NCBI GenBank assembly: GCA_015680905.1
Contig: CM027377.1
Coordinates: 12,238,501 to 12,302,500 of the forward strand
Reading direction: 5' to 3'
DNA from: Coptis chinensis
Taxonomy: Eukaryota > Streptophyta > Magnoliopsida > Ranunculales > Ranunculaceae
DNA: 64,000 bases
Position numbers and translations under genes: made by a program
Shown here: positions 51,011 to 64,000 of the stretch, piece after piece
Numbering within the stretch: the first letter of the stretch is position 1
Layout of the letters: the number at the start of each line of letters is the position of its first letter
Notes under the pieces: model-generated
What the model was told of the DNA's origin: nothing
Seen by the model: the letters and a program-made list of their open reading frames with translations, nothing else
Databases searched by the model: none

Positions 51011-51084
<74 letters not shown>

Positions 51085-54773: not shown

Positions 54774-55485
54774 TGGGAGGAGTCGTTTGAATTCGACCAA
54801 TCTTCTGGTTTGGTGCAGAAATTGGATTATATAATCCAAATAACAGGATCTCAGATAGAGACTAGAGAGTGCTGTAAAGGAGGGTTTTGGTTTTTCTTGA
54901 GGTTTGCGAAGAAAGGGGGAAGAGGGTTGAGATTCTATGGAGGGACCGAGTTCGCTTGTGAGAGAACTGCCTACGTATCCTCTTTTGGTTTTTCTCTTTC
55001 TGGGGGAGAGAGGAATCAGGTCCGACGTAGTTCAAATAGGTAGTATTTATAGGCTTAAGAAAATGTCAATTCGGGGGACACGTGTGTCTCTTGCACACGT
55101 GTAAGGTGGAGATCGTGAATGAGTGTTGGGCTGGTTATATTATTAGTCATGTGCTGATTGGGAGTTGGCGCCGTCACCCCTATTTCCCGGTAGTGGGAAG
55201 TACAAGTAAGATTTTGGTAATGATTACCCCTGGTGGTGATCCTATCCGAAGGCGTTCGTCTCGGCCATGCGTTAAATCGAGACATCTTTGTTCGCACCAC
55301 CTACACCGAAAGGAGCCTCCGCAGTCGGTCTTGGAGGTCGATGTCCCGAAGTTCGCTTATGCTTTGCGCGACATGTGTGTTCACAAGGGAGCTGCTCACA
55401 GGTCGGTCTTGGAGGTCGATGTCCTGAGTTCGCTTATGCTCCACGCGTGCCTGATAACTTTATGAAGATATCACTCCCCTACACA
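54774..55485 (-). repeat. 3' LTR of the Tat-type element (left boundary approximate)
   Basis: The right end (minus-strand 5' end) is TGTGTAGGGGAGTG at 55485, directly after a polypurine tract. The left end is placed at TGGGAGGAGTCG (54774) because composition changes there; TG at 54814 is an alternative. It contains a TATA box (55051-55044, minus) about 434 bp from the U3 start. In U3 a block TCGGTCTTGGAGGTCGATGT is repeated 78 bp apart (from about 55326 and 55404). The second LTR needed to confirm the ends is not in the window. Confidence 0.65.
55044..55051 (-). promoter_or_regulatory. LTR promoter TATA box
   Basis: TATAAATA on the minus strand inside the LTR, in a suitable position to start the genomic RNA near 55018. 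Confidence 0.55.
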
Positions 55486-55497
55486 GCCCCCTCTCAG
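55486..55497 (-). promoter_or_regulatory. polypurine tract
   Basis: GAGAGGGGGC on the minus strand abuts the TGTGT start of the 3' LTR; it is the plus-strand primer site for reverse transcription. Confidence 0.65.
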
Positions 55498-56012
55498 CAG
55501 AGTGTTTTTGTCACGGGAAATGTTCTGCTGAGAGAAAAAATGGAAGAACGTGTGGAACATTTGCGAGCTGTGGTGGACGATCTGACTGGGACGGCGCAAC
55601 TTTTGAATCATGTGGTAAGATGATTTGGCGGGAAATGGAAGTTGTGCCGTCATATGCACGTGACAGAATCGTAGCAGTTGAGGGAGAAACGTGTCGCCGT
55701 ATTATACGGAACTGCTGAAAAGACAGTACCTTGGAACACGTGTGCGGGCTAGAGCATAGGCTGTAATCATAACTTCTTGGTAACTGAACGGGCGGTTTAT
55801 ACAAAATCAAATTTGGGACATCAAAAAGGTACTGCGTGTTTTCTTCTTCCGCAAAAACGCAAGCTAGGGTTCCTCAGTGAGTGCTTCTGCTGCTGTTACC
55901 TTTCCATTTTCAATTTGCTTTCCTCTCTGTCCAGTGCACTTTGTTAAGTAAGTAGGTCATTGTAAGATTATAGGGTTTAAGCTTGAGTAATTGATAGAAA
56001 AGACTCGTTATA

Positions 56013-57942
56013 ATGTCTGATTCTGATGATACTCGATCGGAGGAGGTTCGGGAGATATCATTGAGTTGCGGAGAGTATGAGGATGACGAAGCAGTGAGTG
56101 TTGGCGTTGAGGTTGAACTAGATGAGGAAGATAGGGTAGATGAGGGTAATACTCGATCTAGGTCAGAAGGTGGCGTAGCCAGTACGTCAGGTCGAGGGGA
56201 GATGTCGTCATCAAGTGATGTGCCCCTTAGAAGTGTAAACCGTCGTGCTGCAGACTCGTTCCCCGAACTGAGGGCAGCGTATGGGATTAATGTCCCCGAC
56301 CTTGAGATATACGAACCACGGTTGAGTGAAAATGTTCGTAGTGAGGAGTACAACCCGCCTAATGGTGGAATAATAATCTGTGAGGGCCAGCTGAGAGCGC
56401 ATATGCAAATACCGTTCTCGAAACTGGTATGTGACTTCTTGGCCCATTGTTGGAAGTCTCCTTGTCAGTTCGTTGGTAACACCTGGCGATTGTTTAAGGT
56501 GTTTGACCTGTTGAATGCGAGTGGGGAATACGACATAGTGGAGCACTATGTGGTAAGGAGATCTGGGAATTTGAACTTTAGCTTGCAAACCATGACGACG
56601 CGTTCTGCTGTGATCGATGGTGTAAGCAATGAGGCAAAGGGCGCATGGCGACCTGCTAGAGGTGGTGCCTCAGGAGCTGGAGGATCGAGTTTCCGCCCTG
56701 AAGGGGGTTCGATCGATGCTCCTGTGGAGTTAGAAACGGTGGTTTTCAACCCTCGCGCAAGGAGCAGGTCGGAGAAGAGGCCGCGCGATGCCTCTAAGCA
56801 AGACGCTGCCCGAGTTACAAAAGTAGCGCGACACGCTCTTGGGGAAAGCTCCAGTAGCGGGGGGCGGTTCGATGGTGGCGGCTGGGGTTATTGTTTCTGC
56901 GCGAGTGGAGCGACTGGCGTCATGGACTTGGCTACTTTTGGGGTGGGGTCTAATGCACCTCGTCGGGGGCGTGAACCCAGTCCGGTGGCGAAAGCGCAAG
57001 CTCCGCGTAAGGCGAGTGGAAAGGCTGTTGTGGTTGCTCACGAGCTAGAGGGACATTTTGTTTTTCCGGGCGAGCATGGGCGAACGAACCGTGGAAGCGA
57101 AGTGATTGTAGCTTTTCGATCGAAGTAAGATATCGGGTTACTGTTAGAAACGATAGCTCGGATGGCAACCGCAAAGGAGCTGGATGAGAAAGGGCTGGCC
57201 GATAACTCGAGATCGAATGGAATTCGCGCAATGCTTGATGCGTGTGTCTATCTGCGTTTGATGTAATCGTTTTACGATACACAATTTGTTATTTTGTGGC
57301 TATTAACCATGCGTGTGTTTTGCAGCTAGTAAGTGGGTTTCGTAAATTGAAGGAGATTGCCCGTTCACAAAAGCGAGATAGAGAAGCGGTGGTGAAGTCG
57401 CGATGAGTTTGAAAAATGTCCGGAGGCCTCGAAGATGGAACGCGAGGAACCGGAAGATCCAAGAAAGCTCATCAAGCCGAAGTCTAGCCAAGATCCGAAA
57501 GACAATCGGGGCGTAAGATCCGAGGCAAAAACTTCTGTGGAGCTGAAAAAGAACATCTTGGCGGCGACCGTGGAAATCGGGTAGTCAACGAAAGTATGCC
57601 TTATCTTCGTAAGAAGGTTGCTCGGGACGCTACCAAAGCCTATGACGCTCGGATGCAGACTTTGTTGAACTAGAGGCGCAACTACAACGCTTTGAAGACA
57701 TATCATGCACCGTACATCTCACACATCGGGTAGAACAGTGCCGAGTAATTAGTGGCGCCCCGCCGCTTCGAGAGGTCATGCCGGAGATTGCACTACCGCG
57801 AATTGATGCTACTGCGTCTGATGTGATGATGAGTTTAGACTTGGATGGAGTATCTGTTATGGTGACTGGGAGGGATGCTGAGATTGATGAGTCGCTCATG
57901 CCTGGAGAACTAATTGTCGAGCCCAGAGATGGCGAGTTGTAA
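56013..57942 (+). CDS. antisense ORF of the Tat-type retrotransposon ('gypsy-type transposon' domain), with intron, partly decayed
   Basis: Opposite to pol, ATG 56013 opens a frame to 57128: an acidic Asp/Glu/Ser-rich N-terminus, then AAYGINVPDLEIYEPRL, IICEGQLRAHMQIPFSKLVC, DFLAHCWKSPCQF and NTWRLFKVFDLL (about residues 85-175), which resembles the plant 'putative gypsy type transposon' (Transposase_28) domain, then an Arg/Ser/Gly-rich linker with KRPRDASK. After a break the reading continues as ETIARMATAKELDEKGLADN, an intron (about 57262-57327) and GFRKLKEIARSQKRDREAVV, with further frame damage, and ends in an acidic stretch to TAA 57942. Such antisense ORFs are known in Ogre/Retand elements; their function is unknown. 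It is probably expressed from its own plus-strand promoter, since the leader 55780-56012 looks like a plant 5' UTR. Confidence 0.65.
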
Positions 57943-57961
57943 GTTTGTTATGTAATGCTGT

Positions 57962-58141
57962 CAGCTTATAAGCTGTGATACAATAGAGCCGGGTTTCACA
58001 GGGGTAACCCGGGCGATTCGCCTTTTATTTGTATGTGCCGATCGCGGAGTGATCCGATACCCGCTTCTTTTGGGGCACTCCTGTGAGGACGAATATTGTT
58101 TAGTCGGGTTGGATTTCCTGAGTAGTCTCAGCAACCCGGCT
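57962..58141 (+). other. hairpin cassette A, downstream of antisense ORF 1
   Basis: Within 180 nt: a perfect palindrome CAGCTTATAAGCTG (57962-57975); CCGGGTT/AACCCGG (57989-58012); GGAGTG/CACTCC (58046-58081); and a 40-nt hairpin (58102-58141) with a 10-bp outer stem (AGTCGGGTTG with CAACCCGGCT, one T-G pair), a one-sided GATTTC bulge, a 5-bp inner stem CTGAG/CTCAG and loop TAGT. It lies 20-200 nt after the stop at 57942. Confidence 0.75.
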
Positions 58142-58772
58142 AACTTACTATGGTTCCAACTTGCTAGGACAGTCGTTGTTTTAGCGGTATGCCTATGCCT
58201 TGTTGTTTTTGTTCCCCTATTATGTGTGAATCGCTTGCTTGACCATAGTTGTGTCTGCGTATAACAAAGCATGGCGGGTGCATTGCAATGACCACTTCCC
58301 TGCCCATGATTGGTAAACTTGCATGAGCGCCTTGTTGTTAAATTGCTTGCAGCTGTAAGGTGTTGCTCGTAACGAGGTCACCAGGTCACTGGATCCTGGT
58401 TCGTGAAGGAGGTCGAATCGTGTCGTGTTTAGTGCCGCTAACGGCAGTGTTCCCTCGCGTGCGTGACACGTGGAGGGAGACGAGCGGTTCAAGGAACATA
58501 ATGATGGCGGGCAGATGGCGTTTGGCGTCTCAAGGTAATTATGAGGCGCTTAGGAAAAGACGTTTTTTATTGAATAAAACTGCTCATCGAATACTAACAA
58601 AGTATTTGCTCGTCTTCTTGCCTAAACTTAAAAGTCTGTCTTCTCGCTTTGCTCTTTTGCTGTGCATCGTCGTTGTTGTTGCTCGTTCAGGTACGTTCAT
58701 TCTCCTCTGAGAGTGTTATTTCGTCGAGAAGAGTTTGGAATAAAACTGTAGCTCATGTGACAGTACCTTTGT
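58142..58772. other. spacer between hairpin cassette A and the second antisense ORF
   Basis: Internal DNA of the retrotransposon without a convincing ORF. Small hairpins occur (ACCAGG/CCTGGT at about 58378-58397; TGCCG/CGGCA near 58432). TTTTTTATTGAATAAAACTG near 58563 resembles the pol end at 61085-61100 (TTTTATTGATAAAATCG), suggesting that the duplication behind the second ORF set began near the pol end. Confidence 0.35.
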
Positions 58773-59750
58773 TTGCTAGGTTTTATCATGGTAAGGTGTC
58801 GTCCATTCATGAGGGGAGAAGGAAGCATGAGAGAAACGCCTCCTCTGATAATGGAGAGGATGGAGTTTGAACCTCACGTGCATGGTGATCGCGGGAAGAG
58901 GAAAGCTGCTGCTGTAGAGGCGAAGGGTCATAAACGACCTAGGAAGGTTTGGGCGCCCACCGGCGCATTATATGTTTAGGTCGCCCCGCCGGTAGTAGCG
59001 ACATCGATCGATCATCACGCCGCCATGAGTGTAGCGACTTGAGGCAAGGTCGCCCGATCGCAGGTGAGAGTTCGCCCTCTACTTGTGGTGATGTGGGGAG
59101 CCGAATTCTACTACATGGGAAGACGGAAAGAAGCGTATGGTGAAACGCCGGACTATAGCTTCCACTCGGCCCATAGCGACCAGCGCCTCGGGCGGGGATC
59201 GTACTGGATGGTGATAAGGCAGAGGTGAAAGATGAGGACATGAAGACGTTGCTGGGGACGATGGATATGGCCGCTTGTTTGGTAAGTTTAAGACACACTA
59301 GGTTGTTATGTCGGTTACCCAGGCAAACTGATTCTTTGACTTTGTTCGTGCAGTTTCTTGCAGGATATGATAAGTTGAAAAAAGCTGTCCAAAACACCGA
59401 GACTGATGATGACCCTCACGTCGAGCTAGGGTGTATGCGAGCTGCATGGGGGGCTGATAAGAGAAAGCTGGAAGTGATGACTACCAAGTACCAGAACGTT
59501 ATGGCTGAGAATGCTGTGTTAGTGAACGGACGGACTGAGCTAGAAAGGGAATTAGCTGTGGTGATTTGCTTATGCTAAGAAATGTCAGAAAGTGGCGCGC
59601 AAGAAAGCCAAGAAGGCGCATTAATCGAAGCCCGCATATCGCCTACGCTGCTCTGGACGAGAAGTATGACACCTTGAAGAAAGCTACTGTAGGCGATGAA
59701 CAAGGGCAGGGGATGCGTGTGATGTTGAGATCTGCCCGCACAATCGCTTT
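58773..59750 (+). pseudogene. second, partial antisense ORF (coiled-coil part), decayed
   Basis: The frame from 58773 holds a basic region (RGKRKAAAVEAKGHKRPRKV) and then breaks. Around 59225 it resumes as KDEDMKTLLGTMDMAACL, followed by a GTAAGT donor (59282), a GTGCAG acceptor (59352) and FLAGYDKLKKAVQ with an extended helical segment (AAWGADKRKLEVMTTKYQNV, then AENAVLVNGRTELERELA). The exon-intron pattern mirrors the end of the first antisense ORF (DACVYL, intron, GFRKLKEIA), so this is a diverged duplicate without the N-terminal domain. Function unknown. Confidence 0.5.
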
Positions 59751-59853
59751 CAACGGTAGCGCACCAAAAATAAGCATGTCGTCACTGAGATTTGATGATG
59801 CGATCTACTTTTGTCTCTGTCAGCCAGAAATTATAAGTGTTGTTTACATTTTC

Positions 59854-60022
59854 CTCTCTTATATGAGAGTTAACAATAGAGTCGGTCTTCGGGCTTGCCC
59901 GAAAGCGGTTCACCTTTTTTTATTCAGAGAACTGGTTTCCACGAAAGTGGCAGTTCGATACTTTGTTAATTTTTGTAATGAACACCGATCTGGATTTTCT
60001 GGGTAATCCCAGCAGATCGGTG
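59854..60022 (+). other. hairpin cassette B, downstream of the second antisense ORF
   Basis: CTCTC/GAGAG (59854-59869); TTCGGGC/GCCCGAA (59888-59903); GAACTG-CCAC/GTGG-CAGTTC with a GAAA loop (59929-59956); and a 40-nt hairpin (59983-60022) with a 10-bp outer stem (CACCGATCTG with CAGATCGGTG), a one-sided GATTTT bulge, a 5-bp inner stem CTGGG/CCCAG and loop TAAT. The order and spacing match cassette A, while the paired bases differ in a compensating way. Confidence 0.75.
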
Positions 60023-60149
60023 GATGTAGTTGTTGTGACGAATGGTCATATAATGTTATTGGTTATGTTCTGCATGCATGTTGTCGTGTACTCGTGTGTA
60101 ACTAGCGCTACGCTTTATGATTTTAGAAATATGCATCCCGCCATCTAGT

Positions 60150-60930
60150 CGCCATGTATAAGTCCTCGGCGTGATCGAGAGGCTATGTAGCCCGTGAAAT
60201 ATAAAATATAGGTCCTTGACGTGACAAGAATTGGAGAGGCTATGTAGCCTCGAGCTCCGGAGAGTCGCCTACTCGAGAGAGCGTTCTCGTTTAGTCGATC
60301 CTAGAAATATAGGTCCTTGACGTGACAAGAATTGGAGAGGCTATGTAGCCCTCGTGAGCTCCGGAGAGTCTTTCGCTTTCGGAGAGGCGCTCTCGTTTAG
60401 TCGATCCTAGAAATATAGGTCCTCGATGTGACAAGAATTGGAGAGGCTATGTAGCCTGTGAGCTCCGGAGAAATCGCCGCTTCGCGGAGAAGTTCTCGTT
60501 TAGTCGATCCTAGAAATATAGGTCCTCGATGTGACAAGAATTGGAGAGGCTATGTAGCACGTGTGAGCTCCCGAGATCTTAGAAATATAGGTCCTTTAAG
60601 AGAGCGTTCTCGTTTAGTCGATCCTAGAAATATAGGTCCTCGACGTGACAAGAATTGGAGAGGCTATGTAGCCTGTGAGCTCCGGAGAGCTGTCTGCTCG
60701 CGGAGAGCGTTCTCGTTTAGTCGATCCTAGAAATATAGGTCCTCGACGTGACAAGAATTGGAGAGGCTATGTAGCCCGTGAGCTCCGGAGAGCTCGGGAG
60801 AGCGTTCTCGCTTAGTCGATCCTAGAAATATAGGTCCCTCGACGCGACAAAAATTGGAGAGGCTATGTAGCCCGTGAGCTCGGAGAGAGCGTTCTCGAAG
60901 TAGGTCCTCGGGACTATGTAGCGTGAGCTT
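60150..60930 (+). repeat. tandem array of ~95-114-bp units in the retrotransposon
   Basis: The block TCGATCCTAGAAATATAGG, followed by TGACAAGAATTGGAGAGGC and TATGTAGCC, recurs at about 60295, 60401, 60504, 60618, 60721 and 60816, with partial copies at both ends. Units vary in length at a GC-rich GAGCTCCGGAGAG segment. Such arrays are common between pol and the 3' region of Tat-type elements. Confidence 0.88.
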
Positions 60931-61089
60931 CGGAGAGCTATCGATGAGTCGGATGAGCGGAAGTAGACTCGGTCGAGGAGGACGTTTGGATGCCAGTAAA
61001 TGGAATAGCTTATACTAGGTAACATAAAAAATAAAGTTGAAACTGATCGATAGTGCTTAAAAAAAACAGAATATACAACAACAAAGGTT

Positions 61090-64000
61090 TTATTGATAAA
61101 ATCGTTTCAGCAGATAAGTATTCCATGGGCGAGGTAACAATTTCCTTCGAGTTTTTATCCAAGACTCCGCTGCCCACAACACGCTCTACTATGTACGCAC
61201 CTTCCCAATTAGGGGCTACTTTGGAATCGCCTTGCGTCTTTTTTGAGCACCGGATCGCCAGCCGGAATGATCGAGGATGCACTCGCTTATTGTAGGAGTT
61301 CTTCGTGGTTTGTTGATAAGATGCGACTCGATGGTGGCTAAGTCACACCGCTTCTTTGAGCAAATCGACCTCGTGCTAAGACGAATCATTGTGTCCAGTT
61401 TCAACGAGCTCGGACCGAAGTCAGTGTGAGTGTCACCGGTGGGAATGATGTACTTCTGTGCCATAACACAAGGAGAATGGAGATTCGCCGGTACTGGACC
61501 GAGCTGTGGTGCGATGAGCCCACAAGATGTTCTCCAACTGGTTCGGCCATTGACTTTTGTTCTTTTCAATCTTTTTCTTCAAATTTTCTAAGATGGCCTT
61601 GTTACTTGTTTCCGCTTGACCATTACTCTGAGCGTACTGTGGAGTAGAAAATGCATGAACTATCTTCCATTTTGCTAGAAATTCTTTAACGGTTCGACCT
61701 TTGACATGACGAGTGTATGTGGCAACCCAAATCTGGTGATGATATGAGTCCAGATGAAATTGCGGACATGCGATTCTTTAACATATGCTAAAGGAATGAC
61801 CTCGACCCACTTGGTGAAATAGTCAGTTGCCGCTAAGACGAACCGAAAACCAGTGCTTTTCTGGGGGACGAATGGTCCCATAATGTCCATGCCCCACATG
61901 TGAAATGGCCATGGGCTTGCTATATTGATCAGCTCGCGTGCGGGCTGAATGATGTTGTGGCCGAATGTTTGACATTTTAAGCACTTGAGAACGTATGCTT
62001 TGGCATCGGTTTGCATACGGGGCCAGAAGTAGCCTTGGAAAATTGCCTTGTGGGCTAAAGAACGACCTCCGGCATGGTTTCCACATTCTCCCTCATGGAT
62101 TTCGGCAAATATCAATTGTCCCTGCTCTGGAGTAATACATCGCAAGTGCGGTCCACCAGCAGATTTTCTAAACAACTTATTGTGTAACACGCAATAACGA
62201 CGTGCTTGATATTGGATCTGTCTAGCTTTGGCACGCTCTACAAGGAGCGTGCCCTGATGGATGTAGTCCATGATGGGCTGCATCCAGATCTGGCGCAACT
62301 GATCTTCGGAGAGAGGGATCAGATCGGCTATAAGTAGGGCATGCTCGACCTGATATGCAGGTCGGTCGATCACCTCGATAAGGAGTTGTCGTGGAACGCA
62401 ACTCGATGTTTGAGTGGCTAGGTAAGCTAGGCTGTCTACGTGACGGTTCTCATCACGCAAAAAATGGTGTATGGTAGATTTCTGAAAAGAAGGCAACAAA
62501 TGATGAACGACCTGAAGATACTTCGAAAGATTACCTTCTTGAGTAGTGTACTCTTTAGCAATCTGGCGAACGACCAGTTGCGAGTCACTAAAGACTTGAA
62601 GCTCTTGCACACCGAGTTGTAGCGCCATACGAAGGCCCATGATCGCCGCCAGATTCACTACCAGTATTGAAGATCGCGGTCGAAATCGAACTTATTTTTC
62701 GACCATAAGTCCTTCGGGAGATACTAAGACGACTCCGATGCCACTCCCTCCGGGGTTGCTAGATCCATCTACAAAGAGAGACCAGAGTGATTTGACACGC
62801 TCTTTGTCAACAACAATCTCCATCTCTGGTTCCCAGTGTGGGTCCTGAACAAGGAAATCGGCGAGGAAGTCGGCTACGACTTGACCTTTTTGAGAGGTAC
62901 GAGGTACAGTGTTCACCAAGCTCCTCGGCCCATACGGCCATGCGAGTAGTCTTGTTTTCTTTGTGGAGAAGTTTCTTCAATGGGAGGTTGGTCAGTACGC
63001 TGATCGGATGTGCTTAAAAGTACGGCCTGAATTTTCTAGCCGAATACACCAAAGCAAGTACGGCTCGTTCAAGGAAAGAATAATTTTTCTCAGCTGGCGT
63101 GAGCGTCTTACTTGTGAAGTAGATCGGCTTTTCGGAATTGTTATCCTCTTTGAAGATAACTGAGCTGAGGGCGAAATCTGATACTGCCAGGTATAGCCCC
63201 AGTGTCTCTCCATCGACTGGTGTGGCTAAGATGGGAGGCGTGGTGAGGTATTCTTTGAGAGTGGCGAATGCTTGGTGGCATTGATCAGTCCATGAGAACG
63301 GCTCGCCTTTCTTGAGGAGTTGTAGGAACGGACGACATTTGTCAGACGCCCTGGATATGAATCGATTAAGTGCAGCGACCATACCTGACAACTTCTGTAT
63401 CTGCTTCTTTGTCTGTGGATCAGGCATGTCTAAGAACGCTCTGATTTGGTCTGGATTCGCTTCGATCCAGCCACGCTGTGACACCTGATATCCGAGGAAT
63501 TTACTAGAGGACGCTCCAAAGAGGCATTTCTCTGGGTTCAACTTCATTCGAGTGCGGCGCAATCTGGAGAACGCTTGCTCAAGGTGAGTAATATGGTCGA
63601 CTGCTTTTTTGCTTTTGAGGACCATGTCGTCGATGTAAACTTCCATGGTCTCTCCTAACATGTCCTGGAACATGTCAGTTACCAGACGCTGATATGTCGC
63701 TCCGGCGTTCTTAAGGCCGAACGGGAGGACGTTATAACAATAAATTCCTTGTTCGGTAATGAACGAGGTCTTCTCTTGATCTTCCTCAGCGAGTGGGATT
63801 TGATTGTATCCGGCCAGACGCATCCATAAAGAAAGAAGTTCATGCCCGCAAGTCTGGTCGACAAGGCGGTCAATGCGTGGTAGGGGAAAACTATCTTTCG
63901 GTGTTTCTTGATTGACATTCGTGAAATCGACGCATAGGCGAACAGTTCCATTCTTTTTGGGGACCGCCACGATGTTAGCGACCCAATCGGGGTATTCCAC
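61090..64000 (-). pseudogene. Tat-type pol: reverse transcriptase, two RNase H domains, integrase (5' part off window)
   Basis: Reading on the minus strand from the right edge: RT with VAVPKKNGTVRLCVDF, LPRIDRLVD, YNVLPFGLKNAGATYQ, VYIDDMVLKSK (catalytic YIDD near 63620) and FLGYQVS; then the RT-linked RNase H (ETLGLYLAVSDFALSSV, YFTSKTLTPAEKNYS) to a stop at 63014. A second, archaeal-type RNase H follows (LFVDGSSNPGGSGIGVVL; FSDSQLVVRQI), then the integrase: HEGECGNHAGG and CLKCQ zinc site, WGMDIMGPF with the first Asp, ATDYFTKWVE. Around 61690 a small deletion removes the second catalytic Asp block and shifts the frame; the sequence continues as EFLAKWKIVHAFSTPQYAQS, NGQAE with the catalytic Glu, WAHRTTARSSTGESPF, then a C-terminal NWEGAYIVERVVG region ending at a TAA near 61090. 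Several stops and shifts: inactive. Confidence 0.92.

Follow-up and report, generated by a model that had tools for sequence, protein, structure and literature searches.

A Retand-like retrotransposon with two antisense genes

The DNA analysed here is a 64,000-nt stretch of Coptis chinensis contig CM027377.1 (hereafter the window). The hairpins that we describe lie in a ~12.5 kb Ty3 retrotransposon of the Tat clade, Ogre/Retand branch, which extends from window position 54873 to about 67412 and has pol on the minus strand. Its 3′ LTR (54873-55483, minus strand, which is the sense strand of the element) matches the other LTR (L009:3308-3912, corresponding to window 66808-67412) at 89.4% over 625 aligned columns, and a 5-bp target duplication, AGTGC, is found at both outer LTR ends. 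A stop-free pol fragment at 61675-62691 (minus strand) contains an RNase H-like domain (RVT_3) followed by an integrase zinc-binding domain according to Pfam; no Pfam match for RT or gag was obtained in 10 stop-free pieces of the window's own copy. Among related copies, we found RVT_1, RT_RNaseH and then RVT_3 (L014:907-2526), RT_RNaseH, RVT_3 and then Integrase_H2C2 (L025:2-1495), and RVT_3, H2C2 and rve (L028:6698-7825), which over the copies gives the order RT, RNase H, second RNase H, integrase. The available text of PMC6317226 describes a second RNase H (aRH) between RNase H and integrase as the order for Ogre and Retand. We read the RVT_3 of the related copies as this aRH, and the arrangement by which the Ogre/Retand branch of the Tat clade is recognised is present in these copies.

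Plus-strand open frames are located between pol and the LTR. With the end of pol placed approximately, this region measures about 5.5-6.2 kb, which falls within the 2.9-6.6 kb reported for the pol-3′ LTR region in the accessible part of PMC11963269. A tandem array with a unit of roughly 103 nt (60204-60887), a feature frequent in Retand-type elements, adjoins pol. The long pol-3′ LTR region, the antisense ORFs and the array fit the description of Retand in PMC11963269, as far as its text is available. When searching for the TRP28 domain (PF04195), no Pfam match was obtained in six plus-strand pieces (E up to 10) or in seven antisense-oriented ORFs of other copies (E up to 0.01). According to the available portions of the literature, TRP28 occurs in the antisense ORF in 97% of young clusters (PMC11963269) and in 23% of Retand elements (PMC6317226). 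Because the domain was not found, we name the element Retand-like and not Retand. A plant calmodulin-binding domain gave a Pfam match in the window. Furthermore, a long hairpin of ~19 bp, wobble pairs included, was observed at 55490-55534, one arm of which abuts the polypurine tract and the 3′ LTR border.

Two antisense genes were delineated on the plus strand. Antisense gene 1 (55998-57942, exons approximate) consists of an ORF at 55998-57128 and later open pieces up to a TAA at 57940-57942. Antisense gene 2 lies at approximately 58480-59836; the phase of the open frame 59177-59578 points to the TAA at 59834-59836 as its probable stop codon. The divergence at the three codon positions, for which 39 other copies were compared (16 to 39 per place), is unequal in antisense gene 1 at 56300-56620 and 57800-57942, which agrees weakly with a coding sequence that reaches the TAA at 57940-57942. 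The test is weak, because the thirds are also unequal inside the modules described below (for instance 0.096, 0.079 and 0.172 at 59840-59980). Since, in addition, the open frames 57956-58264 and 59539-60006 overlap the hairpins, the ends of both antisense genes are weakly placed. We considered coding as the cause of the hairpin conservation reported below and rejected it, as overlapping frames exist, yet no fitting codon-position bias was seen in this weak test. A protein search with antisense ORF 1 found no relatives among 5940 candidates at E <= 0.001. The stretch 58480-58559 shows ~2.5% divergence among 39 copies, among the lowest values of the region, and a hairpin with CACGTG is located just upstream of it (58450-58479); this stretch is perhaps the promoter or the first exon of antisense gene 2.

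Two 40-nt hairpins of identical geometry

The initial annotation had pointed to two 40-nt hairpins with the same geometry and compensating base-pair changes. Both 40-mers are present letter for letter, hairpin 1 (h1) at 58102-58141 and hairpin 2 (h2) at 59983-60022, both on the plus strand. RNAfold returned the described geometry for each of them, namely a 10-bp outer stem, a 6-nt bulge on the 5′ side, a 5-bp inner stem and a 4-nt loop. The energies were -20.1 kcal/mol for h1 and -22.5 kcal/mol for h2, with z-scores of -4.2 and -5.5, respectively, and none of 200 shuffles folded as well. The stem of h1 lengthens to 12 bp (58100-58143) and the hairpin is closed by TTG/CAA, and the heart of h2 reads CTG-GATTTT-CTGGG-TAAT-CCCAG-CAG. 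About 150 nt separate each hairpin from the inferred stop codon of the plus-strand antisense gene that precedes it.

Comparison of h1 and h2 bore out that seven of the 15 pairs are changed and that all of them are still paired, six through two-sided changes and one through a T-G/C-G exchange. Overall, 15 of the 40 positions differ, 13 in the stems and two unpaired. When 13 random substitutions were introduced into the stems, all 15 pairs stayed intact in between 1 and 59 of 400,000 trials, according to the transition bias used. No further site of the same geometry with all 15 pairs was found on either strand of the 64-kb window outside an AT microsatellite (51014-51084).

The hairpins close two related modules

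Upstream of the hairpins, the two regions gave a local alignment score of 49, compared to a mean of 23 and a maximum of 44 in shuffled sequences (0 of 2000 as high). Downstream of the 40-nt hairpins no similarity was detected (1045 of 2000 shuffles as high), so that the module ends with the 40-nt hairpin. Similarity and alifold place the putative 3′-UTR module 1 of antisense gene 1 at 57943-58143 and module 2 of antisense gene 2 at 59837-60022, both on the plus strand. Judged by their sequences, these two modules are related to each other. Their order is hp-a, a conserved ACAATAGAG (as in the window's copy), hp-b, a variable part and the 40-nt hairpin (hp-d, that is h1 in module 1 and h2 in module 2).

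In module 1, hp-a (57962-57975, plus strand) is formed by CAGCTTATAAGCTG, with 90.4% of the cells paired and 15 two-sided cells, and in module 2 (59854-59869, plus strand) it has the stem CTCTC/GAGAG, with 97.5% of the cells paired. The hp-b of module 1 (approximately 57986-58022, plus strand) is degenerate in the window's copy and a clean 5′-bulged hairpin in some others; nine exact-word matches were found in 40 copies, most commonly GAGCTG-GTTT-CCTGGG-GTAA-CCTGGG-CAGTTC. The hp-b of module 2 (59879-59911, plus strand) is likewise 5′-bulged, with 19 exact-word matches in 40 copies and GAGCTGT-GTCT-TCAGG-CTTG-CCTGA-GCAGTTC as the commonest form, and its inner stem carries an A-U/G-C two-sided change in seven of 40 rows. 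The variable part of module 2 holds a further bulged hairpin, hp-c (59929-59956, plus strand), which has the plan of the 40-nt hairpins; its sequence, GAACTG-GTTT-CCAC-GAAA-GTGG-CAGTTC, is also the commonest form among 24 exact-word matches in 40 copies. The plan of hp-c in module 1 is uncertain. The common plan consists of an outer stem, a U-rich bulge of 4-6 nt on the 5′ side only, an inner stem of 4-6 bp, a 4-nt loop and an unbroken 3′ arm. In two subfamilies (L059:1-101 and L060:1-101), GAACTGGTGTCC or GAACTGGTTTCC directly follows the 40-nt hairpin and resembles the beginning of hp-c; the hairpins may therefore vary in number or arrangement.

Pairing is conserved among copies of the element

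In 40 copies including the window, which also comprise the 18 rows from which it was built, the model R1 recognised, in the correct orientation, 77 of the 80 hairpins expected (44/44 and 33/36); at E <= 0.01, h1 was not found in L038, L041 and L042. In the 18-row alignment, 97.0% of the cells are paired, compared to 21-43% when the arms are slid. Divergence among 39 copies is 4.2% for h1 and 2.8% for h2 against a mean of 12.7% for 56000-60200, and 8.5% and 2.5% of the 40-nt segments, respectively, are less divergent.

An earlier set of 93 hairpins contained only those with 11 or more of the 15 pairs, a filter biased towards pairing. We therefore rely on a repeat by ungapped core scan with no pairing filter, in which 98 of 100 expected hairpins were recovered (40 of h1 class and 58 of h2 class), h1 being missing in L038 and L042. 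Five of these hairpins have shifted or broken arms with fewer than 11 pairs. The initial annotation had named unpaired substitutions at stem positions as evidence against selection on the fold. This was borne out only in part: 20 of 40 h1-class and 41 of 58 h2-class hairpins are fully paired, and 20 and 17, respectively, contain broken pairs. Broken pairs and indels in single copies are as expected of old insertions, and pairing as a whole is far above what a tree-aware null produces. For 53 distinct unfiltered hairpins, with trees built from the same 40 columns, the paired fraction was 0.907, compared to a null mean of 0.615 and maximum of 0.791 (0 of 2000 runs as high). The number of two-sided cells was likewise reached in 0 of 2000 runs. 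The count of pairs with a two-sided change is unremarkable, as 273 of 2000 unfiltered null runs reach the observed nine. With the filtered set, the corresponding numbers of runs were 0 (paired fraction), 0 (two-sided cells) and 14 (pairs with a two-sided change) of 2000.

Furthermore, we inspected 20 loci picked by the 22-nt core, a non-random choice consisting mostly of sites without a listed partner or with rarer core letters: 176 of their 180 outer pairs (pairs 1-9) are kept, and all 20 were scored by the model. Wobble pairs are retained as well; among the 93 filtered hairpins, T-G at pair 3 occurs in 39, G-T at pair 6 in eight and G-T at pair 2 in six.

Helix-by-helix shuffling within the window's family gave a mixed result. 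The observed pairing was clearly beyond the shuffles for hp-a (0/300) and the outer stem of hp-b (0/300) in module 1, and for both stems of hp-b (inner 0/300, outer 4/300) and the inner stem of the 40-nt hairpin (0/300) in module 2. A moderate signal was seen in module 2 for the outer stems of hp-c (14/300) and of the 40-nt hairpin (11/300) and for hp-a (26/300). No pairing signal was detected by this shuffling for the 40-nt stem of module 1 (outer 189/300, inner 93/300), the inner stem of hp-b of module 1 (235/300) or that of hp-c (300/300). The true registers of all helices pair better than slid registers. Selection on the predicted structure is well supported by these comparisons of copies.

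Occurrence in the genome and specificity of the plan

When searching this one genome with the core pattern, allowing up to 3 mismatches, we found 1716 matches compared to 107 for the reversed pattern, so the hairpins have many relatives, although these counts take related sequences as many and not as independent events. With the outer-stem letters left open, there were 337 exact matches and none for the control. Among the first 100 core matches listed, pair 20-27 is G-C in 60, A-T in 39 and G-T in one; A-C, expected 23.4 times if the two positions were independent, was observed in none. The unpaired letters 16 and 24 of the same 100 matches are C-G (39), T-A (29), C-A (27), T-G (4) and G-A (1), so that all four common combinations are present, and they are not independent. 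In all 18 listed same-strand neighbour pairs within 3 kb, h1 precedes h2 at a spacing of 1750-1889 bp, and no opposite-strand h1/h2 neighbours were found among the matches listed. One h1-class hairpin (L063:32-71) has quite different flanks and perhaps belongs to a separate family. The sole IMG/VR match to the core pattern (L029) was dismissed as chance, as an inner-stem pair is broken and only model positions 10-31 are covered.

We scanned 18 copies of 8 kb with a strict descriptor, which asks for a 5′ bulge, a perfect inner stem and an outer stem of 6 bp or more closed by CTG/CAG; 14 of the copies could be mapped, L014, L017, L021 and L026 having no anchor. In the mapped copies it found hp-b in module 1 (8 copies) and, in module 2, either hp-b or hp-c (10 copies) as well as the 40-nt hairpin (11 copies), and no CTG/CAG-closed hairpin beyond the module sites. 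On the opposite strand of all 18 copies, and in one mononucleotide shuffle per copy, it found none. In the window together with L009 it returned hp-c and h2 only, compared to 0.12 per 9.1-kb shuffle; h1, with its TTG/CAA closure, falls outside this descriptor. Once the closing pairs were left free and the outer stem was set to 7 bp or more, the search of 54873-64000 also returned five additional places on the plus strand and two on the minus strand, so the plan as such is not restricted to the modules. A search of window 40000-64000 against Rfam (E up to 2) gave two matches far below the gathering scores and none at the hairpins.

Strand of the fold and alternative explanations

The strand with the better predicted fold is the antisense-gene strand. 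Among the 53 distinct hairpins, 41 fold better on it and one folds equally well on both (40 of 48 in the filtered set). The count of single-step G-U and A-C states (16 vs 12 distinct states, 40 vs 26 cells) does not discriminate between the strands, and A-C is found at pair 2 in one subfamily (11 of 38). The initial annotation had also suggested a packaging, dimerisation or export signal of the element. Located between pol and the 3′ LTR, the hairpins could serve in one of these ways, or in strand transfer, as part of the genomic (sense) RNA or its cDNA. The genomic RNA does carry the complement, in which h2 still folds well (-22.0 kcal/mol) and hp-c is nearly as stable as on the antisense-gene strand (-9.5 vs -10.4 for the commonest form), one form of hp-c even being more stable there. 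However, h1 loses three pairs on the sense strand (-15.5 vs -20.1), the commonest forms of hp-b drop from about -13 to about -6, and alifold of the whole modules is weaker (-52.4 vs -69.2 and -67.1 vs -76.8 for the two modules). Moreover, the modules come after the inferred stop codons of the antisense genes. A role of the genomic RNA fold in packaging, dimerisation or export is thus unsupported, and we judge a signal in the genomic RNA or its cDNA unlikely.

Two-sided changes might also arise during reverse transcription without any selection on RNA, as inverted repeats in retroelement cDNA are susceptible to template switching and palindrome correction. Events of this type are recognised in principle, but correction to perfect arms would erase the wobble pairs, of which T-G at pair 3 is kept in 39 of 93 hairpins. 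In addition, the bulge and loop letters are near constant and few parts of the region diverge less than the hairpins, which makes this origin very unlikely. The retained wobble pairs also make single-stranded DNA, the other substrate proposed initially, a poorer fit. Inverted repeats may serve as protein sites in duplex DNA, and the hairpins could be such a palindrome, either a cruciform or a paired binding site. Yet RNA accounts better for a 6-nt insert on one arm between exact stems, for the wobble pairs and for the fact that both modules hold several hairpins built to one plan, and we regard a DNA-level palindrome as highly improbable.

The hairpins could also be an ENE-like stability element, the U-rich bulge of which would clasp the poly(A) tail of the antisense mRNA; of the elements with an established function, the ENE comes closest. 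In the plant LTR retrotransposon Evade/Copia93, an ENE located between ORF and LTR is a structured RNA element that protects the RNA of the element, according to the accessible text of PMC12501189, and the bulges described here are U-rich and lie in a presumed 3′ UTR. In contrast, the Evade ENE belongs to the sense RNA of Evade itself and has U-rich tracts arranged as internal loops, whereas our hairpins are on the antisense-gene strand and have one-sided bulges. No facing U-rich tracts, the defining feature, were found on either strand of 55400-61000 by a simple descriptor that is unvalidated on a known ENE. We consider an ENE-like element distinctly unlikely here.

Comparison with known systems and proposed role

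The antisense ORFs (aORFs) of Grande, RIRE2 and Retand are similarly located between pol and the 3′ LTR in a long region, with an array by pol, as described in the available parts of PMC11963269 and PMC7264820; the element studied here differs from them in having no Pfam match to TRP28. Antisense transcription is reported for Grande, from its own promoter, and weakly for Retand, in the accessible text of PMC7264820. The words 'hairpin', 'stem-loop' and 'secondary structure' are absent from the main texts of PMC11963269 and PMC7264820. Several plant structured RNA classes in the available text of PMC12218528 are likewise single hairpins with a central bulge, and words beginning with transpos, retrotranspos or gypsy are absent from the main text of that paper. 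Among titles and opening lines of abstracts, we found no report of hairpins behind the antisense genes of such elements. A structured 3′-UTR element of a retrotransposon is a kind already known; new are the antisense-gene strand and the plan of its own.

The proposal of the initial annotation, a structured RNA behind the antisense genes of a Tat-type element, is supported by fold, position, domains and pairing. A repeated, pair-conserving fold, as predicted from the aligned copies, stands behind both antisense genes. On balance, we favour the reading that a structured 3′-UTR module follows each antisense gene and would set the fate of the mRNA, the 40-nt hairpin being its terminal and least variable portion. 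The modules would be transcribed as 3′ UTRs of the antisense mRNAs, and a protein, of the host or made by the element, may recognise bulge and loop. The module would thereby set the fate of both antisense mRNAs, be it 3′-end formation, stability or export, and a single trans-acting factor would govern both genes. Close to the presumed 3′ end, the 40-nt hairpin could provide the principal binding site or hinder decay. The structured 3′-UTR element is thus probably a protein-bound mRNA-fate signal, and a role as translation enhancer or decay block is a possible variant.

In HIV TAR-type hairpins, two stems are separated by a U-rich bulge on the 5′ side, the 3′ arm is unbroken and an apical loop is present, and the hairpins described here are alike. 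They differ in the length of the bulge (4-6 nt here vs 2-3 nt) and in being placed in putative 3′ UTRs with several per putative mRNA. An improbable extension of the favoured reading is a Rev/Tat-like system with the hairpin array as its response element, in which an antisense-gene protein would bind the 5′ U-rich bulges in both 3′ UTRs and so control how much of itself and of the second antisense protein is supplied. If true, this would provide a mechanism for the long-unexplained antisense genes.

Antisense genes are widespread among Retand-type elements and still lack an explanation. The conserved fold behind both genes suggests that the antisense mRNAs are produced and that selection acts on their fate, and the 40-nt RNA may offer a small handle on the purpose of these genes.
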